DNA of 64,000 nt from Crambe crambe (lineage: Eukaryota > Porifera > Demospongiae > Poecilosclerida > Crambeidae): positions 7,789,338 to 7,853,337 of the forward strand of contig OZ004581.1 of assembly GCA_963924555.1 (NCBI GenBank). The letters run 5' to 3'. The notes under the pieces were generated by a model. That model saw only the letters and a list, made by a program, of their open reading frames with translations. It searched no databases and was not told the DNA's origin. The translations under genes were made by a program, and so were the position numbers. How positions within the stretch are numbered: position 1 is the first letter of the stretch; each line of letters opens with the position of its first letter. Below are positions 624 to 39,730 of this stretch, piece by piece.

Positions 624-3600
624 ATGCAGATATTGCTAGTGGTATTGGCATCTCTGATAGCCAACAGCTATAGCCAGACTCCAGTACCCCGAACAAATGT
701 AGGGAGTTGTGCACCTCTGACGATAGACGATTTGGGAAACACTACGATGCTAAGTCGTTCAGGAATCCTCCCAGAATTCTTGCTCGAAGAACCAGGACAA
801 AGAGACATGCCCATGGCTCAAATCTTTGCCGTTCAGGAGGTGTGTCAAGTTGCAGGTTTAACGAGAGGCACCATCAGCGCCACATCGTTCATCGTTGATT
901 TTAATTGTACCGTATGTCCAGGAGCCGATAATATGAATCCAGTGAGAGTGACCCAGCAATTTCAGTTGGACTGCAATGCAAATGCAATGCCCTTTAACAA
1001 CATCAACAGGGGTCCAAGTTTTGAATTTCCACTGCCGGGTGTTACTGGCGGGTTCACACGAATTAGGAATCCAGTTGGGAATCTAAATACATCACTCAAT
1101 GACAGATGCGGATTGTGTATCTCAACATTTGCTCGAGACGTAAATGCATCCATTTTAGCCAGAGTCAATAATGAAACTCACTGTGTTGGTAAGAGACTAT
1201 AGAATATTGTTTTCAGTTCGTTTTTTTTTTTGTTTTTGTTTTTGTTTTTCAGCTAGATTTTATATAGCTAGTTAGAATATAGCTATATTGGCATTGAAAC
1301 CATGAGTTAGACACTTTGGGATCAAGTCTACAGGCAGTAATATAGCAATCTCACTTAGCCACTGAAATAGCTAAGGCCACTGTTTATTGATCATTAGTTA
1401 GGCCTTTCAGACTGATGCCGTGGCATAGTATTGGCCATAATGCCATAGTTCTATTCAGTGAAAAACCACAGGAGTTGATACAGTCAGAAGTGATGTGGTA
1501 AAGAAATTCAATTATAATCTGTAGGTCAGAGTAAACTGATGCAGGGCGGGGATGAGAAACTAGCAATAGTGACCTAAACATGCACGCAAAACTATACGAC
1601 TAGCAATCTTATATTTTACAATTTTCTTTTTCTGTTTTGTAATTATAAAGAATGTGATGCAGCATGCAATGAGGGACAGATGAGATGCGTTGGTCCTGGC
1701 CCTGACCAATGTTGCAACTGGTACCTCAACAACACATGTGTGGCTACCTGTCCTTCTCCTTCAGTGGGAGACATTGATACATTTGATTGTGGTGAGTACT
1801 TGGGAGAATTATCCCATATATTATTACAATAGACAAACTTGACCAGACAATAAACCTCAGATTTTATCTTTAAAATTTTCCCCATGTCAAAACTCCACAG
1901 CTGAAGTACAATTGTCTACCATGCATATCACGTATATTATGGATAGTTATTCTCTGATGAAGTGTGCCATTTTTCAGAAAAGTGTACTTGCTAATGACTA
2001 TACACATAATTATTAATTCAGGTGAAACTGATCAGAGCGGTGCTTGAATTAAAAGGATTTTGATATTCTTGTGGTTATTAAATACATTGTTTTAACCACA
2101 TGAAAGAAAAATGGGTCCCATCAGAATGGTGTTGCACCTCCTTTGGGGAGAACCCTGTTAATCTGATCATGATACGTTTTTCATACCATACATGCAGGAT
2201 GTGGAGAACTAGCTCTCAGCAATGGAAACATTACTTATACCAATCGGTTCACATTTGGCAGTTTTGCTGTTCACACTTGTGACATTGGCAATGGCTACAT
2301 ACCCACCGATCCGAGAAGAACTATCAGAGTGTGCACTATGGCTGGCTGGTCTGGTCCTCCCGTCACCTGTCAACGTGAGTGCCCCAGCATAGCATACTGT
2401 ATTAGCCACGGTATCAACACAAAGTTCAAACTGAAAGGAATTTTTCAGTATATATAATAATATACATACTACTAGTCCACATTCAATATTTTTTTCCTTC
2501 TAACGTGAATAGAGAAAGCTTGATCTTAGGGCTGCTTGACTATACCTTTCTTTAACCATTTTATGTGCATGTCTCACTCATTTTCTGAGTGAGGTGGAAA
2601 TGAAGTGATTGGTGATTTGATCAGATATTCACCCTATACAATAGAATTAGGTTGACCATACTCCATGAAGTGCTGAAAAAATGACCAGTGAATATACGTA
2701 CAGTACGTAGCAACCATTTCTAGCTCTGCCCTGCAGCTCCCAGAAAGAGACAAGTATCTTTGAAGCAGCTATAGAAGGGAGCCTGCATGTATTATGTCAT
2801 CCACCACTCATCTTTGACAACACTTTAAGGGTGGTCAGACATACCACCCACACATGGTTGCTAAGGAAGCCAATCTCCAAAGCTACTAATGCTAAGGACT
2901 TGAAACTCCACATGACTAAGACACACTATAACACTACCACACATACCAAATATGAAGGAGAAAGGACAATTCCTACCCAAGATATGAAGCTTCATCACTC
3001 TCAACTATTTCTCACCAAATACTTGAGTTCAGTAGCCGATTTTTGGTCAGCCATTTCTTATTACTATCCTTTACAAAATTACGTGAGCTTTTGTTGATAT
3101 CTTTTAATTTATTCCTATGGTGGTGACTACATGGCTTGCTAAATGAAGTTCTAGAATAGGTATCGATAAATCCAAATGTAAATTTGTTCACCTATTCAGA
3201 TAATATCTGTATGCAAATTTTAGGCCCAGTGCTATACTTCATTCCAGAGAAACAATGCATTTCATATAGTCCCATTGAAACTCTATGTATCACACTGGAA
3301 ATTTATGGTTAGTAATTACATTCTTTTGTGACCACATTGTTACTATGTCTGACCACCCTTAACCACAACACAAACCATTTCCCTATAAACAAGATATCCA
3401 ATAATGACAGCAGCATAATTCTCATCACGAAATTCTCTTCATTAAAATAAAAATATGAAAGTGTGCAACAATGGAGATTTTTTTTGTATCGCTTTGATGT
3501 AGAATTAACCATATGTATGGTGTACTGTATTATGATTTCAATAGATACTTATGCAGACAAGTACATTAAATATGTAGGTAGTGATACAACTTAACAGAAC

Positions 3601-13115: not shown

Positions 13116-16100
13116 ATGAAGTTTTTCCTAGCTGTATTAGCTCTGCTCACTGCTATTAGTGATGGCCAAATGCCAGTACAGACAAGAGCAGTTGGTAACT
13201 GTCCTAGAGTGACAGAGGCTGACTTAGGTAGGACAGATGTTCTGAACAATACTGGACTAGTGTCACTTGCCACTCTCACTCCCAATGGAATTGAGAGGCC
13301 TTTGGTGCGGATTCTGGAGTACCAAGTGGTGTGTGAAGCTGCAGGCTTGACTAGGGACACAGTTAGTGCCACATCAGTGGTGGTAAGATACGAGTGTCAA
13401 GGAGTAATGCAAGTCTGCCCCATGTTTGTGTTAGTCCAGTATCTCAACCTAGACTGCAGGACTTCCGATAGCTTTCTGGTGCCTGAACCGGATGTTCAGT
13501 TTGGAAGTGAAATAAATCCTGCTAATAATAGTGGTCTATCAGTTCCTCTCAACACTCAATGTGGAGTCTGTACTGAGCGAAACAGTGGTACTGACCATTG
13601 TATCCGTAAGTATACTTAAGTCAAATTTACTCTGAGCATTTATAGTAAATTATGTGCTGTTAGATTTTATAAAGGCTTTATTTGATACCAGTGAAAAGTT
13701 ACAAACATGTCCTGGTACTTACAGGTGCCAAGTAAATGCTTTCAGGGCTAATAATATAATTATATAATGTGGGCAGGATGCAGACTGCAGTGATCTTGCA
13801 ACATAGTTCAGAATACTAAAATTTACATAGCATCCTTTCAACTCCAAAGCCACAGTTAAGTCCTTTGAAAAGAAGCTATGTTAATTTTGGTTTTGCTGTT
13901 CTGAATATCATGTTGCAAGATCACTGTAACAATAAACACAGCCATCTGGTCAGGATACTAATACTCTGCACATGACAACTATAGACTATTGGTAACCAGG
14001 TCCTTTTTTTTTTCTTTTTCTTTTTTTTTTTTTTTGGGGGGGGGGGGGCACTTATTACTTCAGCCTCCTTATTCACCCCTTGGCAATCTTCTGAAAAATC
14101 CACTATCAGTCATTGCTACTTACTTTGAGAATGACCTCTGACCTCTGTTTATACTTTATTAGTGTGATGCATACACTGTAAAAACGAAAGTGTACGCTGC
14201 ATACTTATTTAGTGTAGATTGCACACCTAGTGTGTGTATTGAGAAATCTTAGTGTGCATGTTATGCTTCTGTTCTTATAGTGTGTGATACTTGTACTTAA
14301 CTTAATGGAAATTAGCTCTTGTGTGGGTGGAGTGTTATTGCATGCCACCCTTAAAATATGTTGTTGTTTTTTTTAGCATGTGATTCTGCATGCAATGAAG
14401 GACAGAGGAGATGTATAGGCATAGACTCCAACCAATGCTGCAACTGGTACCTCAACAACACATGTGTGATAACCTGTCCCTCCCAATTGGTGGGAGATAT
14501 GACCACATTCAATTGTGGTAAGTATAATAATATAGAGTCAATAATGTGATAAGGCAGTTCGAAATAAATTAGCTACTTGTTTAGTAATTGAACTATCCCA
14601 GTTTATAATGCATATAGTATACTGAGGTATACAGAGTAGTATACAGGTAGGTATACAGAGTAGTATACAAGTGTTAGTTTCAAATCTTACAGTATGATGC
14701 ATATAGTATACTGAGGCATACAGAGTAGTATACAGGTAGTATACAGAGTAGTATACAAGTGTTTGTTTCGTCCTATAAGAAAGATTCTAGGAAAAAATCT
14801 TACAGTATGATGCATAATTATAGTATACTGAGGTATATATAGCAGTACAGTGGAACCCCTAAATGTGGACTCCCTGAAATGCAAAAACCTCTCTAATCAG
14901 GACACTTTTTCTTGTCCCAACACAATATAAATGTGTATAATTTAACCCCTGAAATAGGGACACCTCTCTAATCAGGACACTTTTCGCTGGTCCCAAAGGT
15001 GTCCGCATTTAGAGGTTTCACTGTGTACAGGTAGGAATACGGAGTAGTATACAAGTGTTTGTTTCATCCTATAAGAATTAATTTGGAACTGCCTAAACTT
15101 ATGATATCTTCAACACGTATTCATATGGCAGGCTGCACAGAGCTTAGCTTTCCACCAAATGGAAACATAAGCTATTCCAATAGATTTGCTGTGAACAGTG
15201 TTGCCACTCATACTTGTGATGCTAGCAACGGCTATATGCTCAGTGATCCCAGTGCTAACACGAGGACATGCATGATGGATGGGAACTGGTCTGGCAACAA
15301 CATCACTTGTCAATGTAAGTTCTTTGAACTTTCTACTATATAAACTTATATGTGTACTGTAAAAACGAAATGGTGAACATCACTACAATGTAGTGACTCC
15401 TGTGGCATCATCATAGTAATAAACATAGTGATGCCACAGGAGTCACTACATTGTAGTCATGTTCACCATTTCGTTTTTACAGTAATACTTCATGATTATG
15501 ATGTATATAATATTATGTATGATATTCAACAGTTAATCTAATGAATTCTTGGATTTCATGGCTTTGAAAAAATTAATACACAAAACGAGAATTTATATTC
15601 ATGCCGCAAAATTTTAACCCATGCTAAACAATCCATAAACTCATAACACTTGCTCAGATCTTAACTGTTTGTTTACTTGTTGTCTGCTACAGTGTTTGAC
15701 TGTAACTCTACTGACATCATGGCACCAGTCAATGGAAGAGCCCCTATAGATCGGACCACCCTCAGCTCTGTTGTTACCTTCACATGCAACGATGGCTATG
15801 TCTTGGTCGGAAATGCAACAAGGACATGTCAACCAACAGGATGGTCTGGCAGTAACCCCACATGTGGTATGTAGGAGAGCTAATACCTAATTAAAGGGAA
15901 CACCCCCTAATTGAAATTGAGAGATGAAATATAGATTTAAGGCTTCTTTTCTCAGTATGGAAGTCTATCTATAACTTTTATAAATAGTTTGTCCTTCTTC
16001 AAAGCTCTCTATAATCTCGCATGGGTTCTAATAGTACTGTGTATCATCCTTCTTTGACATGACACAGGTTCATTGCTATGCACCATGTGTATAGGCTATT

Positions 16101-17100
16101 TTGAATCGTTTTTCATGCTTAAAACATACCATGAATGAACAGACAGTTTTATTGGAAGAGAAGAGCCATAAGCATACATCAGTACTAACACAAGATGAAC
16201 CTAGACTGTGGACTATCCCCTCAGCTGTTTTTGGCTACCGCTAGTAACTGATCGGCAATAGCACCACACATGCACAGTCATCTCATGCATGTATACGTAC
16301 ATGTCATTGTGCCGCACCCACCACCCAGTCATTCAGTTGTGTGTTCCCAATCAGCCAAGGAAGGTCCTAAGGATCGAAATGTCCTGTCCGTTCATTCGTG
16401 CTATGTTTTAACTCAAAAAAAGTATTCAAAATCTCCTTCTTTGCATGCAGTATTTGACTGTGGTTCTACTGTCTTGATATTGACCAATGGGAGAGTGATT
16501 ATAGACCAGACAACTCTTGGTTCTGTTGCAAGGTTCATGTGTAATAATGGATTTGTATTGAGAGGAGATACGGTGACAAGAACTTGTGAAGTCGCAGGAT
16601 GGTCTGGCAGTAACCCCTCATGTGGTATGCCATAAACTGTTAGCTAAATATGAAATGTTTATGGGATTATGGGTCTTGTGGGCTAACAAGATTAACCCCT
16701 GATGTGATAAGAACTGAGCATATTATAACGAAATATGGAATTACGGGTTTTATGGGCTAACAGGATCACCTCCCTACTTTAAGGCCACTTGTTCCTGGCC
16801 CAAGGTGGTCAGGTATCATTATAGTTGTCATGGAATGTCCGAGTTTTTGGACATGTTTTGTAGTATAAGGTGTGTATAAGATGATTGTCATATAATAGTG
16901 TACCTGGTTGCTACTGTATGTGCTTGCACTATTCTTTTGTTGCAGTTCGAGTTCTCAATGTACCAGGCATAGTGGTTGGCTCAGTGATAGGTGCTCTCGT
17001 CCTAATAATCCTCATCATCGCACTGATAATCGGGATTATGCTGATTGCACGACATCTCTCACAGAAGAACAATAAAGTGCATGAAAAACTTCAGTATTAA
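13116..17100 (+). CDS. Gene B: type I membrane protein with three sushi domains
   Basis: Six exons: 13116-13605, 14377-14517, 15132-15314, 15693-15866, 16451-16624, 16946-17100. They join in frame to 438 residues, all junctions phase 1. Signal peptide (MKFFLAVLALLTAISDGQ), family N-terminal domain with VVCEAAGL and SATSVVVRYEC motifs, furin-like unit (CCNWYLNNTCVITC), one sushi of the long loop type (NGYML), two of the tandem type (TGWSGSNP), then a transmembrane helix (IVVGSVIGALVLIILIIAL) and a short basic tail ending KLQY. AATAAA follows at 17141. The tail is about 20 residues with no recognisable kinase or ITAM-like motif. The transmembrane exon is very close to that of gene E. Role as a surface receptor is inferred. 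Confidence 0.85.
13788..13926. mobile_element. MITE-like element, family CAGTGATCTTGCAACAT, copy 1
   Basis: It begins CAGTGATCTTGCAACAT and ends with the exact reverse complement ATGTTGCAAGATCACTG. The 139-base element has no coding capacity and lies in intron 1 of gene B. A second copy with the same ends and similar interior is at 45448-45579. Confidence 0.8.
14608..14850. repeat. Tandem repeat built from GTATACTGAGGTATACAGAG
   Basis: Phrases such as ATAGTATACTGAGG and ATACAGAGTAGTATACA recur several times from 14608, with a further remnant near 15028-15060. The array sits in intron 2 of gene B and explains the short open frames there. Confidence 0.7.
14848..15023. mobile_element. MITE-like element with CAGTGGAACC / GGTTTCACTG ends
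   Basis: It begins CAGTGGAACCCCTAAATG and ends CATTTAGAGGTTTCACTG, an imperfect inverted pair. The interior repeats the phrase CTCTCTAATCAGGACACTTT twice. It is a non-coding insertion in intron 2 of gene B. The terminal sequence resembles that of the larger family found after 31 kb. Confidence 0.65.
15355..15484. mobile_element. Near-perfect 130-base palindrome (MITE)
   Basis: The two ~60-base arms, beginning TACTGTAAAAACGAAATGG and ending CCATTTCGTTTTTACAGTA, are reverse complements with very few mismatches and a loop of about ten bases. It sits in an intron of gene B. Related ACTGTAAAAACG ends occur near 14176, 28109 and, diverged, 55336. Confidence 0.85.
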
Positions 17101-17690: not shown

Positions 17691-19012
17691 ATGTATCTAG
17701 TGTTAGTTATATTGGCCGTGTCAGTAACAAATATTTATAGCCAAGTGCCAGAGCTAAGGAGGAATATAAGCAGTTGTACTCCACTGACATTAGAAGATCT
17801 AGGGAGCAGAGAATCACTGAGCAGTGTTGGTTTAGTGGCAAGAGCTAATGCCAGAGATGGTGAGATACCTGTGGTGAAGATTCTTGAGCACCAAGTGGTG
17901 TGTGAGGCTTCGGGTTTGACTAGAGGCAGTGTCAGTGCTACATCAGTGGTGGTTAGATTTGAAACCATTCAGTACATCAACATTGACTGCAATGAGCAAG
18001 CTGGGAGATCTGAAGGGAGCTTCCTGGAGCCACAACCCACTGTACAGATTGGCAGAACCATAAATCCAGCAAATTTGAGCTCCTTGATGCTAACTACCAA
18101 CACTATGTGTGGCCTCTGCTCGGATAATGCAAGCACTCCCAACCACTGCCTCAGTGAGTATAAACTCTGTACAATGTAAGGTAGTTTCAGGTACTGCAGT
18201 ATTCACCAAAATATTTCCCACTAAATCATGATGTTTGCTTTGCCTAAAATACAAAAGTAAAAAAAACAAGATCTGATCTGATAGATCAGTTTTATTAGAA
18301 CCCAATAATACAATTTCTTAATGACAAGCAGTATTTACCGTTTTATAGCTCTGAGGGCTACTTTAGTTATTTATTTTTATTTATTTAGTTATTTATTTAT
18401 TTTATTAAGGCTGTGATGCAGCATGCAATGAGGGACAAAGTAGATGTGTTGGTAGAGACTCTGATCAATGCTGTAACTGGTACCTCAACGACACATGCAC
18501 GGCAACCTGCCCCTCTCCTTTGGTGGGAAATACAACCACATTCAATTGTGGTAAGCAGATAGCTAATATAATACTTTTTAAATAGGTACTGAATTTCGTC
18601 CTGCTTAAAGACAATCATTACCTTGAATGATGAAGAATATTTAATCTGATTCTATAGCGATACATCAAAAATTAATAAAAAGCCATAGAAAGGTGAAGTT
18701 TTTTTCCTGTACCATATAAAAATTATTGTTTTAGCTAGTGCACGGTCTCAAGTCTATCTACATGTGTTAAATCTACTTAGAATTCTTTTCTACAGATTGC
18801 CCAAGACTCACTCTTCAAAATGGAAGTATTACATATACCAATGTGACCTCAATGGACAGTGTTGCCACCCATACTTGTGACACTAGCGATGGCTATGTGC
18901 TCAGTAACTCCAGCACTAACACAAGAACATGCACAATGGGTGGATGGTCAGGTCCTGAAATCACATGTCAATGTAAGTCATATTGAGTGAGTGAGAGAGA
19001 GAAAGAGGAGAG

Positions 19013-19106
<94 letters not shown>

Positions 19107-19125
19107 TGAGAGAGAAAGAGAAGAG

Positions 19126-19203
<78 letters not shown>

Positions 19204-19222
19204 TGGGAGAGAAAGAGAAGAG

Positions 19223-19284
<62 letters not shown>

Positions 19285-21362
19285 ACACATACATATTATG
19301 GTATTATATAGTGTTTGACTGTGAACGAGACTCTATTGTGGCTCCAACCAATGGAAATCATACATTGGATCAGACTACCTTTGGTTCTAAAGTTTCATTT
19401 ACATGTGAGACTAATTACACACTGATTGGAAATGCAACAAGGACTTGTGAACTAACTGGATGGTCTGGCAGTAACCCCACATGTGGTATGCAAAAATAAT
19501 TACATCATAGAAGGCTGCTCGGGAGATTGTCAAAATTAAATGTGGACTCCCTCAAATACAAAAACCTCAGCGATTTGGGGGGAGAACCCTTTAATCATTA
19601 CAATGGAACTCCTGAAACACTTATTACTGGTCCCGAAACTGTCCACATTGCATTCCTTCAAACAGACCAGCATTTAAAGCCCTTGTAGGCAAGGTTTAAC
19701 AATTTATTTTATTAACCCCCTTGTTTAACCCTGTTCACAGAGTTTGATTGTGGCTCTACTGACATCGTAGCACCAGCTAGAGGACACATTGGCTACTTCC
19801 CACCTAATAGAGTAAATATTAGCTACCCGGCAACCATCCTTGGATCCACTGCACTATTTTCCTGTGATAATGGATTCACATTGGTTGGAAATGTGACAAG
19901 AACTTGTGAACTCACAGGATGGTCTGGCAATAACCCTTCATGTGGTGAGTAGTAATTGTAAGAATAATGACACAAGATGAAGTTACAAAATTTGGCTTGC
20001 CATACCCATTTTTAAAAGTCACACCCACTTTTAGGGGACATTATCGACATTATCAATACCCTCAGTACGGCTATGATTATGAATGCAGTTTGCTGAAAAG
20101 CTTGAGTGCCTGTCAAAACACCATTGTGGTCTCTTTTTTTTTCCCCTTCTTCTTCTGTAGTTTTTGACTGCGGGTGCACTGATATCTTAAGATTGAATAA
20201 TGGAAGCATTATCCTAAGTGATTCCACCACACTCAATTCAGTGGCAAGATTCCAGTGTGACAGTAATTTCGAATTATTTGGAGATGCAACAAGGACCTGT
20301 CAACTAGCTGGCTGGTCTGGCAGCAACCCTTCATGTGGTACGTGCTTCTCAAATGATAACTTGTATGACAGCATCAGTACACTAACCTGAGTTTCAAAAT
20401 GGTCAATATAATACAACCATAAGTAACTTCTTAATATACTTGTAGTATTTGACTGTGATTCTACTGACATCATAAGCCTGGAAAACGGAAACACCACTAT
20501 GCTCAATGGGACAACCCTTGGTTCTGTGGTCTCTTTTTCATGCAATGCTAAGTACAGATTGGAGGGGAATGCAACAAGGACTTGTCAACTCAAAGGATGG
20601 TCTGGAAGTAACCCCTCATGTGGTATGTCTATTAATGGCATAATTTCAGCAAAATAGGTACTCCCAAGCATCAGGCATAATGCTAGCATTACTTATGCAA
20701 GTGTTAGGATCAAGGAAGCAATATTTATAACCAGTATCATTGGAATGCATACAATAATGGCATAATCGAAAGATCGTGGGCATAATTGAGAGCATAATGA
20801 GGTCAAAGCATTTTTGGGGAACTGTGACATAGCAAGCTAGCCATAGATACAAAATGCTTAGCAAGAAATTACATTTATTATTGTCTCTTGTTGCAGTGTT
20901 TGACTGTGGTTCCAACTTAACACTGGAAAATGGGATGGTTAGATATATTTCAGAAAAGACCACTCTTGGTTCTGTTGCAATTTTCATATGTAACAACGAC
21001 TACCGACGGAATGGAAATGCAAACAGAACTTGTGAATTATCAGGATGGTCTGGAAGTAACCCAACATGTGGTAAGAAATACGATGTAGTTACCACTTGTG
21101 CATGATGCGTATACTGCTATGCTGCTACATATCAATTCTCTCACATCATTAATTCATTGCTTTTTTTTTTTATGCTGCAGATAATGTACCAGGAATTGGA
21201 ATAGGCTTTTTTATATTAGGTGTGATAATCACATCAATAATAATAAGTTGTATTATTATTGTAGTGATCCTTGTTAAGAAGAAATGTTTAGGGCCAAGGC
21301 TATCGACAGATTCAACCACACAAACACCTTCAAATCAAGAATGGACTATAAAAGACTTATAG
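17691..21362 (+). CDS. Gene C: type I membrane protein with six sushi domains
   Basis: Nine exons: 17691-18153, 18410-18550, 18796-18972, 19312-19485, 19741-19944, 20161-20337, 20446-20622, 20897-21070, 21181-21362. They join in frame to 622 residues, all phase 1. Signal peptide (MYLVLVILAVSVTNIYSQ), N-terminal domain (VVCEASGLTRGSVSATS), furin-like unit, one long-loop sushi (DGYVL), five tandem-type sushi, then a transmembrane helix and a tail of about 33 residues ending TIKDL. Exon 5 has a longer insertion after its first cysteine. Compared with A, B and D the N-terminal domain lacks a short cysteine-containing segment, as in gene E. Exon 4 is preceded by a long GA microsatellite. A surface receptor role is inferred. 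Confidence 0.85.
18973..19284 (+). repeat. GA microsatellite, about 300 bases
   Basis: An almost uninterrupted (GA)n tract fills the intron between exons 3 and 4 of gene C and ends some 30 bases before the acceptor. It generates long false open frames on both strands (Arg/Glu on plus, Ser/Leu on minus). Confidence 0.95.
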
Positions 21363-21689: not shown

Positions 21690-22122
21690 AAGGGTCATCA
21701 TGATAGCTATAAAACCAGGAAGTCCATAATCATTCAATTGGCTATAATCAACCACATCCATAGTCGCTCTGCATGCATGTAGAAGCTGTACAGCATAGCT
21801 AGCTGGTGTAAATCATGAGAGAAAGAAGAGTCCATCACTAACACCAACAATCAGATTCCAGAACAGAGACCAAAAAATTAATGTTGGTAACTGTCCTCCA
21901 ATAAGAGAAGAGTTGTCCAGATTGGAGCATGGGCTATAGAAGTAATATGGTAAAGGGTCATCACAATAACCAAACCAGGAAGTCCATAATTGCAATCTAA
22001 AATCAACCACATCCATAGATAGCAAAAGCAGTACTCTTCATGTACTATTAGACAGAAGCTGTTCCAACTAGTGCATGCTTATACAGTGACCAAGTTAGTA
22101 TAGCTAGCTGCTACAAATCATG
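21690..22122 (+). repeat. Tandem duplication upstream of gene D
   Basis: Two diverged copies, 21690-21817 and 21938-22122, share ATATGGTAAAGGGTCATCA, AACCAGGAAGTCCATAAT and TCAACCACATCCATAG. Both lead into a copy of the start of gene D exon 1. The second copy is the functional promoter and first exon; the first leads into the pseudo-exon at 21796. Confidence 0.7.
21796..21925 (+). pseudogene. Decayed copy of gene D exon 1
   Basis: It matches the start of gene D exon 1 (22097-22240): an AAATCATGAGAG start context, then TCCATCACTAACACCAACA, CAGATTCCAGAACAGAGA and AACTGTCCTCCAATAA. The signal-peptide core has lost about 30 bases and the frame stops a few codons after the ATG. It is a dead duplicate exon. 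Confidence 0.75.
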
Positions 22123-25100
22123 AGAGGAAGAGTGCTGAGGCTAGTGCTAGCAGTGCTGGCTGTGTCCATCACTAACACCAACAGCCAGATTCCAGAACAG
22201 AGAAGCAATGTTGGCAACTGTCCTCCAATAACAGGAGCTGATCTTGGGAGTATGGATGTTGCGAGCCGCATGGGTGTTCTGGCTGAATCATTCGAAGGAC
22301 CTGACGGACTAGAGCCTCCTTTGGTGCGGATTCTGGAGTACCGAGTGGTGTGTGAGGCTGCAGGCTTGACTAGAGGCACTGTTAGTGCAACATCAGTGGT
22401 AGTCAGACATGAATGTTCAGGTATAATAATGCATGCAAATATAACAGTAGCTATCAGGCATCCATTCAACACTCGAATATATAATCCTATTTGTTTATTG
22501 TTGTTGTTGTTGTTTTTGTTTATTTGTTTTGGATGCCAAAGCAGAATTTTAACCCACAACTATAGGGGACTGCTTATAAAACAATATTCTACCTCCTGCA
22601 AGTGTTCCCGTTGACTGGCACATTCTGCCAGCATAATTTTGGGAATAATAGGTCTATCAAAGCAGGAAGCATAATGCTGGCATAATAGGCTATGGAAAGT
22701 GAACTCCATGGTTGATCTTGAATGTATTTATCATGTGTGGCCTACACTAGCTAGCCTAGCTGGATCAAACTTGAGATTGCAGATAGCTACTTTCAAATGC
22801 ATATGACATCAGCTATATATGAGCATAATTAGAGAATAATAGGTCAGTAAAAATAATGACTTTATACAGCTGGAATTAAAGAATAGAATAATAGGGAAGC
22901 AAAAAAGCATAATGTGCCAATCCCTAGTTCCCCCGTAAGGCTTCTGTCAAAGCCTCAAACCACAGTTTGCAAAAGCCACCTTCTCAGAACTTAAGAGATA
23001 GCAACCACTTGTGGTTATGTAAGGCTATAGCTGTTGCAAATAAAACCAGTTCGATAATTAATGTGAACACGCACTATTTTGTATGAAGGACTACAATGCC
23101 CCGGTTCAGAGGTTATCCAATACCTCAACCTTGACTGCAATCCACCTGGAGCTTCAGGAAATGCTAGCTTCTTAGTGCCATCTCCCACCGTTCAGATTGG
23201 TCGAGAGCTCTCTCCCGGGAATGCTGAATCTCTGTTAGTGCCACGTAACATTCAGTGTGCGGTTTGCAGTGAATTAGCACGTCGAAGAGACAATTGTGCA
23301 GGTAAGTCTGACATATGGAACGTCATGCATAACATGTAGGTATTACTGCTTAAGGCAGATAAGCTGTACTGCTCTCAAATTTTGAAAATCTTTATTCATC
23401 CCCCTCTCCCTGAATTTGAAAATCCCTGCATTTGATTTCTATCATGTATATCTTTAGCATGTGACACGGCATGTAACGAGGGACAGAGGAGGTGTCTTGG
23501 ACAGCTCCCCAGCCAATGCTGCAACTGGTACCTTAACAACGTCTGCAGAGTGACCTGCCCCCCTCCCCTAGTGGGAGACAACAGCACGTTTGATTGTGGT
23601 GAGTTTCTCAACCTTAAAGAGGCAAAATTTTCGTAACCATTTCATATTCATTGTTAGTGCTATACAAATTGTTAAAACCCAATATCTGCAGCAATTCAAA
23701 ATCTACCATAAAATTAAAAAAAACGCTTCCAGTGTTGAAATTTACACATGCTAGTTGTATTGAAGCATAACCACAAGATTAGTCACATCCATTATACACC
23801 TTCTTAACACTTGGAATCACTATTACCACAAAATCATCATAAACTACACAAAATTAATAGAAATTATGAGCACCAAAATCTACCATAAAAAAAAAACGCT
23901 TCCAGTGTTGAAATTTACACATGCTAGTTGTATTGAAGGATAACCACAAGATTAGTCACATCCATTATACACCTTCTTAACACTTGGAATCACTATTACC
24001 ACAAATCATCATAAACTACACAAAATTAATAGAAATTATGAGCACCAAAATCTACCATAAAAAAAAAACGCTTCCAGTGTTGAAATTTACACATGCTAGT
24101 TGTATTGAAGGATAACCACAAGATTAGTCACATCCATTATACACCTTCTTAACACTTGGAATCACTATTACCACAAAATCATCATAAACTACACAAAATT
24201 AATAGAAATTATGAGCACCAAAATATTATGATATAAAGTGTTTGTCAGAAGACATCAAAAGGAGTAGAGGCATGAGTCATCTGCTCAAAGAGATTCTCAC
24301 TATAGTCTAAATAATACACAACTCAAATGCTCCATGCCAGCACTGGACTACATACCATTCCCTAATTACCCTTTACAAACAACACTAAATGGTTTCAGTA
24401 CTGGATACACTAAATATTTATACATTTTAATTCATCATAACATGTTATCTTGACTCCATTGCAGGTTGCTCAGAACTGACTCTAAGTAATGGTAACATCA
24501 TCTACTCTAACCGGTTCACTCTGAACAGTGTGGCCACTCACACATGCGACATTTCTAATGGCTACGTCCTGGCTCCCTCCAGCCCCGTCAACAGGACATG
24601 TTCTGAGTCCGGTTGGTCTGGTTCCAATGCCGTATGTCAATGTGAGTTCAAATTCAGCATAATGAAATGCCAGGCCTGTACATCAATGCATCAGCTGATA
24701 TAGTCATGTGTGACAATCCTATGTACGTAGAAATGCTATTTCTTTTATGAATTTGTTCCAAATTTCTGTCATGTGTTCCATAATGGTTAGACTATCTCTA
24801 CACCAAATTTCCAGACCATGGTCATCATGAGTTACAATATGCCAAAGTTTAAAAAGTGGCTTGTCCCAAATAGGTCACACTAATGCCTCCGGAATAATAA
24901 GGAAACCCTCTGTACATTATAAGTGGTCCCAATGTATCTGTTATACAAGCAGAGGCAAGATACATGAATCAGCTGATAGAGTCACACATGCATGGGATCA
25001 ATAATCACCATGCAGTAATTGAACATGGCAGCAGTTAGCTATTTCGAACTTTGTTGTTCTTATGGAGTGAGGATGACCTGTTCCTTGCACCAGCTGTTAT

Positions 25101-28100
25101 GTTAGAGACATTGACCCACAGACCACTTGCAGTTCCACGATAACACAGTCCTATAGCTTCAGCTGACACTATAAAGGCAATGGAATGTCTAGACCAAAAA
25201 ACACAACTATTTGGGGGAAGTTGGGGATGAACATAAATCAAGCTATAATTACGCCTGCACAAATTGATAACTATTGCTATATGCATGCACACTATATGAC
25301 ATGTTCAATATCACACATCAGTCCTGCATATAGCAATGTATCTAGGAAATGCTCTTTAAAGCAATTCAGTCTACAATACACACTTGCATAGGAAATGTAT
25401 TGCCATACATTTTAGCTTAGTCTGGGGTACGTAACTCACCATTAACGAAAAATTCTGGTTCAGTGCCTGTGCTATAAATGAGTCACACATGCACATGCAT
25501 GGAGTCCAACATGCACATGCATGGAGTCCAACATGCATGGAGTTGTGTGCATAACAGGACAAAGTTTAAGAGTAAGTGACATCTGTTCACTTCATATTTG
25601 GTGCACCCTTCAGATTGTGCTCGGCTTTGAAGTCTGATAGAGGCAATTATATTCTTATATGGCAGAGTATACACATCCCATAAATACTATTATGGTATAC
25701 AAATCATGCACCTTTATACTTCTCAATGGGGCAAAAAAAATTTTTTCCGTGGTCTTACAAAGATTGAAGTGTGAACCAAACAAATTCCCTTATTTTCACG
25801 ACAGCACTTATTTTTTAAAAAACCACACCCCACGTAAATTCCTGCTACACAGTATGTTTACAGTATGTATATGAAGTAAATCTGATGGACGTATGGGTTG
25901 TGTATTGAGGGAAGCCTCCAAGTGCTGGTATGCCAAGGTCAATATCACATAAACCACACTGCCATCTGCTGACACCTCAACAATGTAAACATAAGCTGCT
26001 TATAGAGATGATTAATTCTTACTCTATTGAAATTCATAAGTACGGCCAGCATAAAACAAAAAATCCAAGGGATATAAACTAGCCTTGTTCCCAGGCTGTA
26101 ATATAAGAAAGCTGAACTAATAATATATTTTATCATCTATTGTAGTGTTTAACTGCGGCCCTGGTGATGTTGTAAGTCCAGCTAATGGAGCTGTAACATT
26201 TGATCGCACGACCTTTGGTTCGGTTGCTACATTCTCATGCAACACTGGCTTTGCACTGATTGGAGATGCAACAAGAACTTGTGAACTAACAGGATGGTCT
26301 GGCAGTAACCCCACATGTGGTGAGTATCAATATCTTTCACTATTGTATACAAAACACTATACTGTCCTCATTCCTTTGAACAAAGAAATAGAAGCTGCAA
26401 TGGGACCTGGACACTTTGAGACCAGCTATTTCCACTCTTTCAGAGTATGGTTTACCTTGAGCTTTGTATTCCCTGTAATAGAGGTTTCAGTACTACTCAT
26501 GCACCACATAGATACTTGCTAGTCATAGTATGGAGCAACTGCACAGAGTCACCATAAGAGACACTGCATGGATGCAACTGCTGCTGGTTGGCAGCATTCT
26601 CGGCCATTTCCATTTGACAGTCTCTTAATTTGTATTAACTGTAGCAGTATGGTTTGGTTCTCCCTTTTTATTGTTGTTTTATCATATAGAGAGTCCACTA
26701 AGAGAGGTAGCAGTAAAAAAATCCACTTTACACTTTTATTTTGACTGCAAAATAGTTTTAAATGCAGCGTAAATCTAAACCTTTTGCATCAGAATTCCTT
26801 AAAAAGAGACATACACAAAATAAATGGATCAGGAAAATATTTCAATTAGAAGAATATTCTCACTTATAAGGGAAACAATAAATTTAAAGGGACACTGTTT
26901 CAATATTTTGAATTGGGGAAATTCCTGTAATTACACCTTCAATGTGCTCTCTTTGAAGTATTTGAATGCGATCGTGCCGATATCATCAGTCCCGATAACG
27001 GAGCAGTCAGTGTGAATGGGTCCACACTTGGTTCTGTTGCTACTTTCACTTGTAACGACAGCTACACGTTGATTGGAGATGCAACAAGGACTTGTCAGCT
27101 CACAGGATGGTCTGGCAGCAATCCTTCGTGTGGTAAGTTAATAGTCACAAAACTGGTACATTTACTGTGGTACCGTGGACTCCCTCTAATCCGGCCACCT
27201 TTGGGGCCAGCAAAGGTGTCCTGATTAGACGGGTGGCCTCATTTCAGGGTGCATGGACTTATATTTTAAGTGTCCTGATTAGAGGGGTGGTCTCATTTCA
27301 GCATACATTGAGACTTTTTTTAAAAGTGTCCTGAATACAGGGGTGGCCTCAGGAAGTCCACTATAATGGTTACAAATTCATTAATTTATGGAGAAAATTT
27401 AAGTGAATTTAATCTACGAATGATACAGTGTTTGATTGTGGTTCTACTGATATCATACGACCGGAAAACGGAAGTGTCTCACTGAATCAAACCACCCTTG
27501 GTTCTGTGGCTACCTTTGCATGCGACTCTGGCTTCACTTTGATTGGAGACACAACAAGGACTTGTCAACTAACAGGATGGTCTGGCAACAACCCTTCATG
27601 TGGTATGTGTCAACAAAAACATTCATGTTCTAACAACTATAACCTTCTATATATTTATTCTTCAGCATTTGATTGTGGTTCAACTGATATCGTACAACCA
27701 GCGAATGGGAGCGTAGTGTTGGACCAAACCACTCTTGGTTCAGTGGCGAATTTCTCATGTGACGCTGGCTTTGCACTGATCGGAGATGCAACAAGGACTT
27801 GTCAACTCACAGGATGGTCTGGCAGTAACCCTTCATGTGGTATGTGGTGTCTATTATGCTGAATGTCAAGAAAGTACAAAGCAATATTGTTGGATAAGCA
27901 AGCACTTAAACAACAATAAACAGTTTGTCGTATAGGACATTTCAGGTCAATCTTGTCCTGTTACCTCATGCCTTTGTCAGATTCAACAGGGTTCACAATA
28001 ACAGTCTGTCCTGGACATTTCCGATCAAAGGTCCTTTGTCCTCTGACTAGAATTTCTATTATGACTATATTTGCATGCCCTTAGCCTTATACCCAGCACT

Positions 28101-28676
28101 TAGCCCTACACTGTAAAAACGGGGGGTGTCATGGCAACATGCGCGAAAATGACACCAAAAATTTGTGCTACCATAACACCTAAAAGGTGTAGCTACACTG
28201 ATGGTGCTATGACAACACTGGTGTCATTTTCGCACAAAAAAAAATACACCCAAATTTGGTGTTACCATGACACCCCGTGTAGCCTTAGTCACCAGCTGCA
28301 AGGGTTTAGGCTATTTAATTCACACTAGCTAATGGGCCGGAGTACGAGAGCCTCTAATATTAGCTATACATGTACAGCAATTTAACTCTTCTTACAGTCT
28401 CTGATTGTGGTTCTGTGGACATTGTGAGGCCAGAGAACGGGACAGTTCAGTTGGATCAGACCATCCTTGGCTCCATGGCAATCTTTGCATGCAATGACAA
28501 CTTTCAATTAGTAGGAGATGAAGTGAGGGTCTGTGAACCAACAGGCTGGTCTGGCAGCAACCCGTCATGTGGTATGTTTATACTATCAGCATTTTACCAT
28601 ATAATTATTATGCCACGAATAATTTATGGTGTAAAATGTGATTTTTGCAAATTTTAATGTATGAACCATCGTTTGT

Positions 28677-28710
<34 letters not shown>

Positions 28711-31700
28711 TCTGCATTAATATTTCAAATGAAATCCACAAAAATTTACCCCCCACAAAAATTTCTAGTCGAGGTTACAACAAAATTAATATCACAAACG
28801 CCACTCTACAGAGTAGTAAAGAATTGAGAAAGTTCTAACAAAAATCCTATACAAAATCTTATAGAGTTTGACTGTGGGTCTGACAATATTGTAAGACCTG
28901 AGAATGGAGCAGTCATGTTGAACCAGACCACTCTTGGTTCAGTGGCCATCTTTTCCTGCAATAACAGCTATGAATTGGTTGGAGATGAAATAAGAACTTG
29001 TGAAGTGACAGGATGGTCTGGCAACAACCCCACATGTGGTATGACTCAAACTTTATGCGTTAAGAACGTCTAAATGCAGACACTTTTGGAGTGTCTTGAC
29101 TAATCAAGGGGATGTTCCTTAATTCTGGGATGAATTAATAATTGCCAAAAGTGTCCTATTCAGGGGAGTATAGGGTTTCCACTGCTGTTATGATTATAAT
29201 GTCATCTACTTTAATCTCATCTCAGTGTTTGATTGTGGCTCTGCTGATATTATAAGACCAAACAATGGAACAGTTGTATTGAATCAGACAACCCTTGGTT
29301 CAGTTGCTACTTTTGCATGCAATGCTGGCTTTGCACTGATTGGAGATGCAACAAGGACTTGTGAACTCACAGGATGGTCTGGCAGTAACCCTTCATGTGG
29401 TACGTATGTGTCCATACAAACCATTCACTTGCAAGCAATACCAGTAATAATTCCAATCAACCTCTAGCATTTGACTGTGGCTCTGCTGATATTGTAAGAC
29501 CAGATAATGGAATGGTTGCGTTGAATCAGACGACTCTTGGTTCAGTTGCTATGTTCTCATGCAACACTGGCTTTGCACTGATCGGAGATGCAACAAGAAC
29601 CTGTCAACTCACAGGATGGTCTGGCAGTAACCCTTCATGTGGTGAGCATAAAGCAAATAGTTCATATAGCTAATTATGAATATCACTAACTGCCAACTAC
29701 TGTACTGAACATAGTTTTTGACTGTGGCTCTACTGACATTGTAAGACCAGAGAATGGGAGGGTCACATTGAATCAGACGACCCTTGGCTCAGCGGCTACT
29801 TTCTCATGTGATGCCAGCTTCGTTTTAGTTGGAGATGCAACAAGAACTTGTGAACTAACAGGATGGTCTGGCAGTAATCCCTCATGTGGTACGTAGCTTA
29901 CTATAGTGCAAACTTTAGCATCTATTCCAGAATAAGATGCATATATTTCAGTTCACTTCTTCATACTTAAGTTCTATGATATTTGGTGTGGAGATAGTCC
30001 AACCATTATAGAACACAGGACAGAAGTCTGGGACAACTTCATCAAAAAGCATGTTTAATTGGAAAAGAAATACCCAAGACTGTCATATGCCCATATCAAT
30101 CATTTCTACTTTCAGTATTAAAATTTAATATGAGTGTCACATATACTGTTATAATAATTATTGAGGAACTAATTCCTGTGATCACCATGCAGTGTTTGAT
30201 TGTGGCAGTGCTGACATTGTAAGTCCTGGCAATGGCAGTGTGAGTCTACCTGGGACGACTCTTGGCTCTGTTGCTACTTTCTCCTGCAATGATAACTTCA
30301 CGCTGGTTGGAGACACCACAAGGACTTGTCGACTCACAGGATGGTCTGGCAGTAACCCCATATGTGGTAAATACAGAATACTAAAATTAATGGCTAAATG
30401 GTGTTAATACAATTTACAACTTAAGTGATTTCAATATATCAATTTAGCAGCTACGAAGAAAGTTTTCAGATTATCAATTCCAGCATTCACCTGGCATTCA
30501 CTATAGCTAACTGCTATAACTTTCTCAATTCTTAACCGAATTTCAAATTTCAAACACCAGCAGAGAGAGTGGATAATCAGGTCTCTGTTGATACATTAAA
30601 CTAGAAATTTGGTTAAGAATTGAGAAAGTTATAGCAGTTATAGTGAATGATCAAGGGGCAAGATGAAAGGCCCATAATTATTTATGAGATATTTCTCTTG
30701 TGACCTCCATCAAACAAGTAGTTCAAAATAATAAATCTACTTCCTTTCATTAGTTTGAACTTTGAACTATTAACCACTGATTATTAATAATAACAGTAAC
30801 CATATTATTCTGCAGAATCTATGCGCAACGATACCGTGATCGGCGATCCACTCTTCACTGTCCCACTATCCGATAGCCAAACCGGGCAAACCTATGACCT
30901 TTGCTTTGAAGTGCACGGACGAAACAACTCGATATTCAATTTCATATCTGACGAATGTGTCAGTGTGAATGCTAAATATTCACCAGTAGGGGACTTGAAT
31001 ATCATCAGCGAGATTGGTGTCAGGACAGAAGGAGAGAGTGGAGAATGTAGAGATATTCGGGTGAGTCTTGAAGGTTGTGCAGTCTCCACCAGAACCATGG
31101 GAGGAGGAGGAGGAGCTCTTGTTGGATTAGAACCAAAGGACACCTTGAAGACGGATGGGATTAGTGTTAGGAGGTACAGGGAAAGAGTTCGCATCTCCGT
31201 TCCAAACTGCAATCAAGCCAGACTGGTTTTCTGGGTGATTTGTGAGCGAGGGGCGATAGACATGATTCGCTTCCAAGTAGCTCACGGACTCAATCTGAGA
31301 GCAACTGCCCACGGACTTCTTGGTAAGTCATTTTACAATTTTTTTCAGTGGAACTGCCGATAAGGACACTCCATAAAAGGACAAAACCTTTCAACAAAGG
31401 ACAAGTACCTTTGTATTACACTTCAACAAATATCAAAAGGCTGGTGTCCATTATTCAGAGATTTCACTGTAGTAAAGTGATAGAGAAAAAGCCATATTCC
31501 CACGCCAATGTTTCATCTTTGCTTCCTTCACATGCAGGACAATTCTGGAATGTGCCTGTGGCAGTTGAACCTTTTTCCACACCATCACCATCACCATCAC
31601 AAAATGTCGAGGACGAACGACCCAAATTCAAAGTGACAATCCTGTCCGCCCACGACTCTCCCTCTCGCTCCTTCCGGGCAGAAGAGTACCCTCGGACATG

Positions 31701-31872
31701 GGACAACACCAAACAGACCTGTTACTATGCTGGCAACACCCAAGGAGGTCCTGATGTGGACGCTAACATTAAGGACTCCGTGATTGAGGGAAGTTATGAA
31801 GATTACGTCATGGAGTCTCTCTTCAGCACCACGTATAAATATGCCAAGTGGAAGAGTGACTGCAATCCTTAA
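22120..31872 (+). CDS. Gene D: secreted eleven-sushi protein with ITIH C-terminal domain
   Basis: Sixteen exons: 22120-22420, 23089-23301, 23458-23598, 24465-24641, 26146-26319, 26959-27132, 27429-27602, 27666-27839, 28398-28571, 28865-29038, 29226-29399, 29468-29641, 29715-29888, 30193-30366, 30816-31322, 31538-31872. They join in frame to 1137 residues, all phase 1. Signal peptide, family N-terminal domain (split by an intron not present in A, B, C or E), furin-like unit, one long-loop sushi, ten near-identical 58-residue sushi (GDATRTCQLTGWSGSNPSCG), then a ~280-residue domain. That domain begins GDPLFTVPL, has YDLCFEV and HGLLGQFW, and ends with a TCYYAGN...EDYVMESLF segment. These match the inter-alpha-trypsin-inhibitor heavy-chain C-terminal domain (DPHF start, HGLLGQFF, CWFVHN, DY..P.LF). 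No transmembrane helix or GPI tail, so it should be secreted. AATAAA at 31963. Confidence 0.83.
23699..24222 (+). repeat. Three-copy tandem satellite, ~175-base unit
   Basis: Three nearly identical units, starting near 23699, 23876 and 24048, each run from ATCTACCATAAAA through CGCTTCCAGTGTTGAAATTT to AATTATGAGCACCAAAAT. The array lies in the intron between the furin-like and first sushi exons of gene D. The high identity means recent amplification. Confidence 0.9.
27175..27364 (+). repeat. Short tandem repeat with GGGTGGCCTCATTTCAG
   Basis: The phrase AGTGTCCTGATTAGAGGGGTGG recurs about three times with variation, bracketed by TGGACTCC and its inverse GGAAGTCCA. It lies in an intron between sushi exons of gene D and is probably a rearranged inverted-repeat element. 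Confidence 0.6.
28109..28280. mobile_element. Inverted-repeat element with GGGTGTCATGG ends
   Basis: GGGGTGTCATGGCAACA near 28120 is mirrored by TTACCATGACACCCC near 28260, and AAAATGACACCAAAAATTTG is mirrored by an imperfect inverse further in. It starts with the ACTGTAAAAACG phrase seen at 15355. Non-coding insertion in a gene D intron. Confidence 0.65.
30497..30649. mobile_element. MITE with CTATAACTTTCTCAATTCTT arms
   Basis: The left arm CTATAACTTTCTCAATTCTT (about 30515) is mirrored by AAGAATTGAGAAAGTTATAG (about 30616). Relatives with the same arm occur near 35275-35405, 44640-44740 and 55790-55885, so this is a family of about four copies here. This copy is in the intron before the ITIH-like exons of gene D. 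Confidence 0.75.
31346..31471. mobile_element. CAGTGGAAC-ended MITE inside gene D last intron
   Basis: It begins CAGTGGAACTGCCGATAAGG and ends GATTTCACTGTA, with interior AAAGGACAA and GTGTCCATTATTC phrases. It is the first of about ten copies in the window. It sits wholly inside the 215-base last intron of gene D and causes a false open frame that appears to extend the final exon upstream. Confidence 0.75.
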
Positions 31873-32696: not shown

Positions 32697-34178
32697 ATGT
32701 ATCTTAGAAGAATCATGCATCTAGTGCTAGTTGTATTGGTTGTGTCAGTAACTATTACTTATAGCCAAGAGCCAGAGCTAAGAAGGAATATAAGCAGCTG
32801 TACTCCAATAACATTAGCAGATCTAGGAAGCAGTGAGATACTGAGTAACAGTGGTTTAGTAGCAAGAGTTAATGCCAGAGATGGTGAGATACCTGTGGTG
32901 AAGATTCTTGAGCACCAAGTGGTGTGTGAGGCTTCAGGTTTGACTAGAGGCAGTGTTAGTGCTACATCAGTGGTGGTTAGATTTGAAACCATTCAGTACA
33001 TCAACATTGACTGCAATGAGCAAGCTGGGAGATCTGAAGGGAGCTTCCTGGAGCCACAACCCACTGTACAGATTGGCAGAACCATAAATCCAGCAAATTT
33101 GATCTCCTTTATGCTAACTACCAACACTATGTGTGGCCTCTGCTCAGATAATGCAAGCACTCCCGACCACTGCCTCAGTGAGTATTAGCTCGGCCGTAAA
33201 GTGCACGATTTTTATGGGGTCAAAGTCATGTAATAAATTGAAGTGTGAACTTTATGTATTCAAAATCAATTTTACCCCATAATACCTCCTACATATATAT
33301 TACTGATATTCTTCTACCAGTAAATTGACAACAATAATCATAAGGGATTTATATAACTTTTTAAATTAGCTACTTCTCTCTTGCAGTGTGTGATTCTTCA
33401 TGCAATGAAGGACAGAGGAGATGTGTTGGTCCAGGCCTCAACCAATGCTGCAACTGGTACCTCAACGGCAGATGTGTGGCAACCTGCCCCTCCCCTTCAG
33501 TGGGAGACATGAACACATTCAATTGTGGTAAGAAGATATTATGTATACTTATAAAATATGTATAACTGCTTCAACAGTATATGGTCTATTTGCATGCACT
33601 CACATGGCACTTTGGATTCTTTTCCAGCTATGCTGGTTCTAAGTCACTAATATTCTATAAACTGTTTGTCAATATATATATAAACCTTTGTTTTGCAGTG
33701 TTTGATTGTGGCTCCACTGACATCGTAGCACCAGATAATGGAAATATCAACTACAAGGCAACCATCCTTGGATCTATTGCGGAATTTTCTTGTGAAAGTG
33801 GATTCACATTAGTTGGAAATGCGACCAGGACTTGCGAACTCACAGGATGGTCTGGCAATAACCCTTCATGTGGTATAAACTGAGCATGCATATAACATAC
33901 ATAGCTACCAATACAAAATGCTTCTGGGTTTAGCTATGCAACTCGGGATTTATGGAGAGATAAATTATAATTTCTGTATACTGTATGTAGTATCTCATAT
34001 TCACGCTTCCACTATTGATAATTCTTCTATAGATCTCAATGTAGGCATAGTGGTTGGCTCAGTGGTTGGCTCAGTGATAGGTGCTCTCGTCCTCATACAT
34101 CTCATTATAGCACTGATAATAATTGTGATTGTGTGCTGTAAGAAGAAGAATAATGATGTGGTGCCATTCAGCAAATAG
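32697..34178 (+). CDS. Gene E: smallest family member, one sushi domain, membrane protein
   Basis: Four exons: 32697-33177, 33387-33527, 33699-33872, 34033-34178. They join in frame to 313 residues, all phase 1. Signal peptide (two candidate ATGs six codons apart), N-terminal domain, furin-like unit (CCNWYLNGRCVATC), a single tandem-type sushi, and a transmembrane helix (VIGALVLIHLIIALIIIVIV) with a ~15-residue tail. It lacks the long-loop sushi found directly after the furin-like unit in A to D. The second half of exon 1 is almost identical to gene C, with only a few base differences over about 300 bases. The transmembrane exon is closest to gene B. Looks like a recent hybrid of B-like and C-like units. 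Confidence 0.85.
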
Positions 34179-37156: not shown

Positions 37157-37420
37157 CTAATTCTCAGCAATCTTTATTTCTATTGATTGATAGTTACTTG
37201 GAAGATCAGGAATGGGCCATTTAGATATCGGCCACATGCAGAAACCACTCTCAGTTCCACAGTCCAGGCAAAGAGCTTCATCACAGCATGGGATGATTGG
37301 TGCATGCTTAGAACAAGGCATTCCTGGCACCGAACATGAAGGTGGTCTTCCCTCTGTCAGTCTTGCTGCCATTAGTAGGAATGTTAGTGAAATGGAGACC
37401 ATCAGACATAAACGATTCAT
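37157..37420 (-). CDS. Small secreted knottin-like protein 1
   Basis: Single-exon minus-strand frame. I favour the internal ATG at 37420, which gives a signal peptide comparable with its neighbour (MNRLCLMVSISLTFLLMAA), over the ATG twelve codons upstream at 37456. The mature part reads RPPSCSVPGMPC, then PCC and further cysteines: C-x6-C-x8-CC-x4-C-x2-C-x6-C, seven in all. The C-x6-C-xn-CC-x4-C core is the inhibitor-cystine-knot spacing. Close paralogue of 38686-38886 (shared CSVPGMPC, IIPCC, E.GFC) with a longer C-terminal tail. Function unknown; knottins of sponges and venoms include channel and protease ligands, but nothing here shows an activity. Confidence 0.65.
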   Translation of the reverse strand: MNRLCLMVSISLTFLLMAARLTEGRPPSCSVPGMPCSKHAPIIPCCDEALCLDCGTESGFCMWPISKWPIPDLPSNYQSIEIKIAEN

Positions 37421-37456
37421 CACTGAATTAGCTAGCAATGTGGAGCTAATCTGCAA

Positions 37457-38685: not shown

Positions 38686-38886
38686 TCATTGCTTGAGTAT
38701 CGGGTGAACGCAGAATCCATTTTCAGTTCTGCAGTCGAAGCAGATTGCATCCCCACAACACGGAATAATGGGAGAGAATGTCGAACAAGGCATTCCTGGA
38801 ACTGAACATCCGGGTGGCTTGCCTTCCACCGAAGTGACAGCCACTGCTATTAACAGAATTAGTGAAATGAAGACAAGAAACTTCAT
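38686..38886 (-). CDS. Small secreted knottin-like protein 2
   Basis: Single-exon frame of 66 residues. Signal peptide MKFLVFISLILLIAVAVTS, then a 44-residue mature region KPPGCSVPGMPC with spacing C-x6-C-x8-CC-x4-C-x2-C-x6-C. Seven cysteines leave one unpaired or available for a dimer. About half its mature residues are shared with the neighbour at 37157-37420, so the pair arose by tandem duplication. Predicted extracellular; activity unknown. Confidence 0.72.
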   Translation of the reverse strand: MKFLVFISLILLIAVAVTSVEGKPPGCSVPGMPCSTFSPIIPCCGDAICFDCRTENGFCVHPILKQ

Positions 38887-39484: not shown

Positions 39485-39730
39485 ATGACATCAACAGTGA
39501 AGAAATACCTTGTCATTCTCGCCTCAATGGCATTTTTCTTGCAGCTGGCTGCTACATTAAACTTTGAAGAGGATGCGACTTGTCAAGACACAGCAGGAAT
39601 GCCGTGTTCCACCCATCCTGAGATCAGAAAGCCTTGCTGTGGTGGAATGAAGTGCAAAGAATGTGCACATGAATGTGTCTCACTCTTTGGTTTCTGCGTC
39701 TACTCAGAGTATATTGTTCCTGAACATTGA
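39485..39730 (+). CDS. Small secreted knottin-like protein 3
   Basis: Single-exon frame of 81 residues. Signal peptide ending near LQLAATLNF, then an acidic EED and eight cysteines spaced C-x7-C-x9-CC-x4-C-x2-C-x3-C-x6-C (AGMPCSTHPEIRKPCCGGMK in the middle). The GMPC and GFCV motifs tie it to proteins 1 and 2. The extra cysteine pair suggests a fourth disulfide. The stop lies only 240 bases before the start of the phosphoglycerate dehydrogenase gene on the same strand. Function unknown. Confidence 0.7.
   Translation: MTSTVKKYLVILASMAFFLQLAATLNFEEDATCQDTAGMPCSTHPEIRKPCCGGMKCKECAHECVSLFGFCVYSEYIVPEH

Follow-up and report, generated by a model that had tools for sequence, protein, structure and literature searches.

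What kind of protein is encoded by a sponge gene whose array of sushi domains ends in a module resembling the C-terminus of ITIH heavy chains, in a cluster where the neighbouring genes end in a membrane anchor? The question is raised by gene D, a predicted model of 16 exons (22120-31872, + strand) in the 64-kb window of the Crambe crambe contig OZ004581.1 analysed here, to which all positions refer. The tail of gene D is a member of the sponge family that holds a lipopolysaccharide (LPS)-binding protein of Suberites domuncula, and distant homology to the C-terminal domain of ITIH proteins is supported. As a whole, gene D is read here, with slightly more confidence than doubt, as coding for a secreted sushi protein with a SLIP/ITIH-C-type tail, which would have arisen through the swap of an anchor exon and would act as a sensor of bacterial ligands.

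The exons of gene D join into a single frame of 1137 residues, with GT/AG ends at all 15 predicted introns. Exon 1 (22120..22420, +) carries a signal-peptide-like start and the first part of an N-terminal domain present across the cluster, with no Pfam match, and exons 2-3 (23089-23301 and 23458-23598, +) carry the remainder of this domain and a Cys-rich piece. A preliminary description of this DNA had placed a furin-like unit before the sushi array, which was not recognised: residues 1-218 matched no Pfam family up to E 10, and no homologues of residues 22-225 were found at E 0.001 among 516 candidates, which were limited to gene-D-like lengths. The eleven sushi domains of the same description were confirmed in exons 4-14 with our own profile and Pfam Sushi. 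The first is divergent (exon 4, 24465..24641, +; 30.8 bits), and the other ten (exons 5-14, 26146..30366, +; 114-128 bits) occupy exons of 174 bases with phase 1 at both ends. Pfam Sushi (E 3e-41) is the sole family above its cut-off in residues 1-509, the part covered by the Pfam run, and our own profile gives the sushi call for residues 510-857. No Calx-beta domain was found in gene D, and a PDB sequence search gave no match. Within intron 3 (23697-24224), a 172-base unit occurs three times in tandem, with 98% matches.

The tail itself starts in exon 15 (30816..31322, +), which has a phase 1 acceptor and encodes the first part of the domain (GDPLF ... HGLL), and is completed after intron 15 (31323-31537, +) by exon 16 (31538..31872, +), with the rest of the domain (GQFWNVP ... 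CYYAGN ... EDYVMESLF) and the stop. The extent originally given for this tail, 30816..31872, is right, since splice ends, joined frame, phase and stop all fit, and the four ITIH-like landmarks that had been noticed in it (GDPLF, YDLCFEV, HGLLGQF and TCYYAGN...EDYVMESLF) are all there. No second copy of the domain was detected on either strand of the window. The two exons could alternatively form a separate neighbouring gene, the fusion being an error of the model, as hinted by an in-frame ATG in exon 15 right after the acceptor and by database entries that consist of nothing but the domain (P0013 and P0022 among them), although such entries may be fragments produced by gene calling. This is improbable, because exon 15 starts in the same phase (1) as sushi exons 5-14, a protein starting at that ATG (MRNDTVIGDP) would have no signal peptide by eye for a domain with eight cysteines, and intron 14, of 449 bases, holds no anchor-like stretch. 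Moreover, sushi domains are continuous with the domain in the relatives P0124 and P0125, and all four long relatives that were read are larger proteins with the domain at the C-terminus.

From 666 candidates, a protein-database search with the 280-residue tail retrieved 204 proteins at E 10 or better, the best known being the Suberites domuncula LPS-binding protein Q4W1E6 (E 1e-51, 39% identity, 96% query coverage). The homology spans the full length of the tail (~280 residues) and places it in the sponge SLIP/LPS-binding-protein domain family. Among the relatives listed (the best 120 of the 204, plus five of five), five are named by organism: Ephydatia, Suberites, Geodia (twice) and Halichondria, all of them demosponges. 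P0001 is 97% identical to gene D exon 15, and no match in this genome to the C-terminal 294 residues of P0124 exceeds 53% identity. Eight Cys columns are invariant in 13/13 aligned family sequences, corresponding to positions 30, 48, 78, 88, 132, 143, 231 and 278 of the gene D tail.

The domain family is not covered by Pfam at its cut-off, and the significant match to ITI_HC_C (PF06668) that had been proposed as a check for gene D failed to appear: the tail scores 12.4 bits, with a cut-off of 27, and matches no other Pfam family, VWD included, up to E 10. On the other hand, ITI_HC_C is matched at E 1 or better by 8 of the 13 aligned family members (best, 3.7e-4), the VWD model not being among the families they match, and by four of seven relatives at 14.2-20.6 bits, all below the cut-off. 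When 17 sponge domains were compared, profile to profile, with three ITIH C-terminal sequences that score 235-253 bits in Pfam, the probability was 97.8% (E 9.2e-13, 216 columns), with an end-to-end collinear alignment that includes HGLLGQF and the C-terminal segment. Six controls with reversed or unrelated alignments stayed below 0.4%, and the alignment compared with a single sequence gave 96.9%. The gene D tail is also collinear with an ITIH2 C-terminal sequence in a single BLASTP comparison (22% identity, E 1e-8). A search of the whole genome with the ITI_HC_C profile found no match, and its control was likewise unmatched, so that it carries no weight. The resemblance could be convergent, the domain being a VWD relative without any special tie to ITIH, and the missed ITI_HC_C cut-off, together with three long relatives lacking a match at E 1 or better, would suit such an explanation. 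Nevertheless, both collinear alignments and the preference of the family for ITI_HC_C over VWD make it as hard to sustain as a separate gene, if not slightly harder. The ITIH identity originally assigned to the tail thus stands as distant homology, supported by profile-profile comparison, weak Pfam matches and fold, but its nearest family is the sponge SLIP type.

With regard to the fold, the predicted structure of a relative of the gene D tail is of the VWD type and matches solved VWD domains, with the D domains of VWF and mucins as the best hits, in a comparison covering the folds on the candidate list of VIA-align. By extension from this relative, the gene D tail itself is predicted to have a VWD fold. 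A 2024 paper notes a VWD-type fold for the predicted ITIH domain holding the GDPH motif (PMC10880436). Unlike the VWD domains of VWF, mucins, FCGBP and RGMB, gene D shows neither a Pfam VWD match nor GDPH.

Vertebrate ITIH precursors are cut at an Asp-Pro bond, and the Asp is esterified to a glycosaminoglycan. Were gene D processed in this way, its sushi array would be a covalent cargo of the matrix, and the conservation of Asp-Pro at the matching place of a homologous domain fits such a process. However, gene D has GDPL at the position of GDPH. The GDPH motif is reported to be cut between Asp and Pro, and a His-to-Asn change to inhibit the cut in FCGBP (PMC10880436), so the Asp-Pro bond of gene D, with Leu for His, is probably not self-cleaved. 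The motif pattern, which was not tied to the domain start, was found in 117 of 125 database proteins (GDPL in 110, His in none) and missing from the other 8, and Asp-Pro is kept in 12 of the 14 copies of the domain in this genome. In addition, the gene D tail has eight cysteines versus two in each ITIH sequence compared, and neither VIT nor VWA was found in gene D (with Pfam for residues 1-509; the exons for 510-857 are covered by our own sushi profile). With GDPH and VIT plus VWA, the ITIH hallmarks, all missing, processing as an ITIH precursor is the least probable of the alternatives considered. VIT domains, which in ITIH proteins lie at the opposite end from the C-terminal domain, were seen at three places of the genome (contigs C11, C20 and C12), on contigs other than those of the C-terminal-domain copies.

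The domain copies of this genome come from 28 exon matches, grouped by position in 14 pairs, each taken as a two-exon copy. All 14 show a GT donor after HG[LI][LI], at the identical place, and a candidate phase-1 acceptor lies upstream of the domain in 12; in L007 and L009, the domain continues from a Calx-beta frame. Partners were surveyed over 1.5 kb upstream of each copy, plus 4 kb for L014 and L015. Within this DNA, Calx-beta precedes seven copies (L007, L009-L014) and VWD-like exons precede L003-L005 (L003 with 20.7 bits for Pfam VWD, below the cut-off of 22.9; L004 and L005 by likeness), with a weak Calx-beta piece (18 bits) further upstream of L004. No upstream neighbour was recognised there for L015, L017 and L018, and sushi domains were seen there before the gene D copy only. 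As for the 125 database proteins, our own profiles show the domain alone in 113, many of which look like single-exon frames, with Calx-beta in 8, with FN3 in 2, and with both Calx-beta and sushi in 2; the FN3 of P0058 is counted from a weak overlapping match only. Pfam adds VWD in P0122 and FN3 in one relative.

The architecture of gene D had first been noted as an unfamiliar one, yet sushi domains directly precede the same domain in two database proteins. Halichondria panicea LOC135335869 isoform X2 (P0124) differs from gene D by Calx-beta domains before the sushi array, and its sushi repeats match the gene D profile weakly (8-17 bits). P0125, labelled by JGI as CUB/sushi domain-containing, differs by its IgGFc-binding and Calx-beta domains; it has 1416 residues in one frame of a 4,366-base contig, which looks like a transcript. 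The sushi domains seem to have joined the domain at least twice, if the tests on a tree of 40 rows hold. This tree is weakly resolved (14 of its 37 inner branches are starred), and the groups tested were named after seeing it. A single origin of the fusion was rejected by the approximately unbiased test (p-AU), both as a clade of gene D with P0125 (p-AU 5e-5) and as a clade of P0124 with P0125 (p-AU 0.001), whereas clades of gene D with P0124 (p-AU 0.06) and of gene D with the VWD-linked copies L003-L005 (0.40) were neither demonstrated nor firmly excluded.

These partnerships offer the main rival explanation, in which the domain would serve in structure or adhesion, as a module akin to the VWD domains of mucins, and the product of gene D would be a secreted component of the extracellular matrix or the surface coat. 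Calx-beta is present in 10 of the 12 database relatives with a recognised second domain (2 of them also with sushi) and before half of the copies in the sponge's own genome, the Pfam matches to VWD and FN3 agree with such a role, and so does the closeness of the fold to the D domains of VWF and mucins. However, the sole named relative with a reported function is an LPS-binding protein, and gene D sits in a duplicating, receptor-like cluster together with anchored paralogues. A matrix or coat protein is therefore a serious possibility, although clearly a less likely one than a sensor.

The cluster comprises genes A, B, C, D and E, which have the N-terminal domain in common, with sushi exons throughout the region. 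Gene A has its N-terminal domain at 624-1121 (+). In gene B (13116..17100, +), the N-terminal domain (13116-13604) and sushi exons are accompanied by a last exon with a membrane anchor (16946-17100). Gene C (17691..21362, +) has the N-terminal domain (17691-18152) and a similar last exon (21181-21362), and in gene E (32697..34178, +), which also ends in a membrane-anchor exon (34033-34178), one sushi exon was found besides the N-terminal domain (32697-33176). The anchors first proposed for these paralogues are borne out by the hydropathy of their last exons: the highest mean over 20 residues is 3.2-3.4 in B, C and E but 1.84 in A, where the exon is GPI-like (glycosylphosphatidylinositol) by eye. 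The maximum in gene D is 1.33, at the signal-peptide-like start, and its predicted protein is probably secreted rather than membrane-anchored. Hydropathy revealed no hidden anchor exon in introns 14 or 15, and the hydrophobic stretch that it showed downstream of the stop codon (32193) belongs to a TTG repeat. The last exons of A, B, C and E and the two-exon domain of D each start in phase 1. The N-terminal domain has 20 matches in the whole genome, of which nine fall in a 59-kb stretch of contig C1. Three of these nine precede the window, which indicates that the cluster begins before it. The domain matches no Pfam family in genes B-E, and an AlphaFold model from five rows (predicted local distance difference test, pLDDT, 40) was unusable.

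A secreted sensor would thus consist of a signal peptide, the N-terminal domain, the Cys-rich piece, eleven sushi domains and a C-terminal domain of VWD fold. In the simplest history that can be inferred for gene D, a sushi-receptor gene that arose by tandem duplication would have exchanged its anchor exon for the two-exon block, in a phase-1 exon swap, resulting in a soluble counterpart of the membrane-bound neighbours. The C-terminal domain would most likely work by binding some ligand of the bacterial surface, for example LPS, the array of sushi domains may serve as a spacer with extra binding surface, and the N-terminal domain, common to the anchored paralogues, could bring the complex to cells. 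Judging from its database name, Q4W1E6 is probably SLIP, whose original paper is said by citing authors to be Wiens et al. 2005. Suberites SLIP is described as an LPS-binding protein of the cell surface that forms dimers and interacts with MyD88 (PMC4557011, PMC1896004, PMC4052302), and a VWD fold seems capable of such binding, since the VWD domain of a crab vitellogenin is reported to bind LPS and bacteria (PMC7949091). Given these reports, a secreted pattern-recognition protein is the likeliest reading, and the analogy suggests that the gene D product is a soluble microbe sensor.

Besides the Calx-beta partnerships, several points weigh against such a sensor. The LPS binding of SLIP is known second-hand, through citing papers, and the VWD fold serves many functions. 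Five of the 13 aligned family members, as well as P0121, P0124 and P0125, have no ITI_HC_C match at E 1 or better, and the own paralogues L017 and L018 (contig C5) lack GDP at the domain start. Finally, gene D is a paralogue, not the orthologue, of SLIP: it has the same C-terminal domain as Q4W1E6, but the latter carries a partial Calx-beta before it (Pfam 22.7 bits, cut-off 27) and no sushi was found in it, whereas gene D shows no Calx-beta and the own copy L012 groups with Q4W1E6 (support 99/98). The Calx-beta-linked L012, on contig C10, is a better candidate for the SLIP orthologue of this sponge.

In any case, the gene D tail links a reported sponge LPS receptor, a domain family below the Pfam cut-off and the VWD-fold tail of ITIH. 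In vertebrates, the ITIH C-terminal domain is a discarded propeptide. It may tentatively be proposed, as a rather speculative extension, that this domain descends from an early animal domain for microbe recognition, that sponges use an expanded set of it for combinatorial sensing of LPS or bacteria, and that gene D represents a soluble sushi form of it, akin to complement, working with its anchored paralogues. Bona fide Toll-like receptors are reportedly absent from sponges (PMC6208332). Literature searches, with most subscription papers outside their coverage, found no published statement of a link between the SLIP family, ITIH-C and VWD. Should the domain prove to bind LPS as claimed, bacterial sensing in sponges becomes testable with one recombinant domain, and the exon swap, if true, would clearly exemplify how the gene of a membrane receptor can come to encode a secreted protein.

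A last observation concerns the DNA downstream of the cluster, where three small Cys-rich peptides of secreted type are encoded within 2.6 kb (37157-37456, -; 38686-38886, -; 39485-39730, +), sharing by eye the pattern GMPCS...PCC...C..C......FC. They are followed, from 39972 onward (+), by exons that resemble, also by eye, those of a D-3-phosphoglycerate dehydrogenase.
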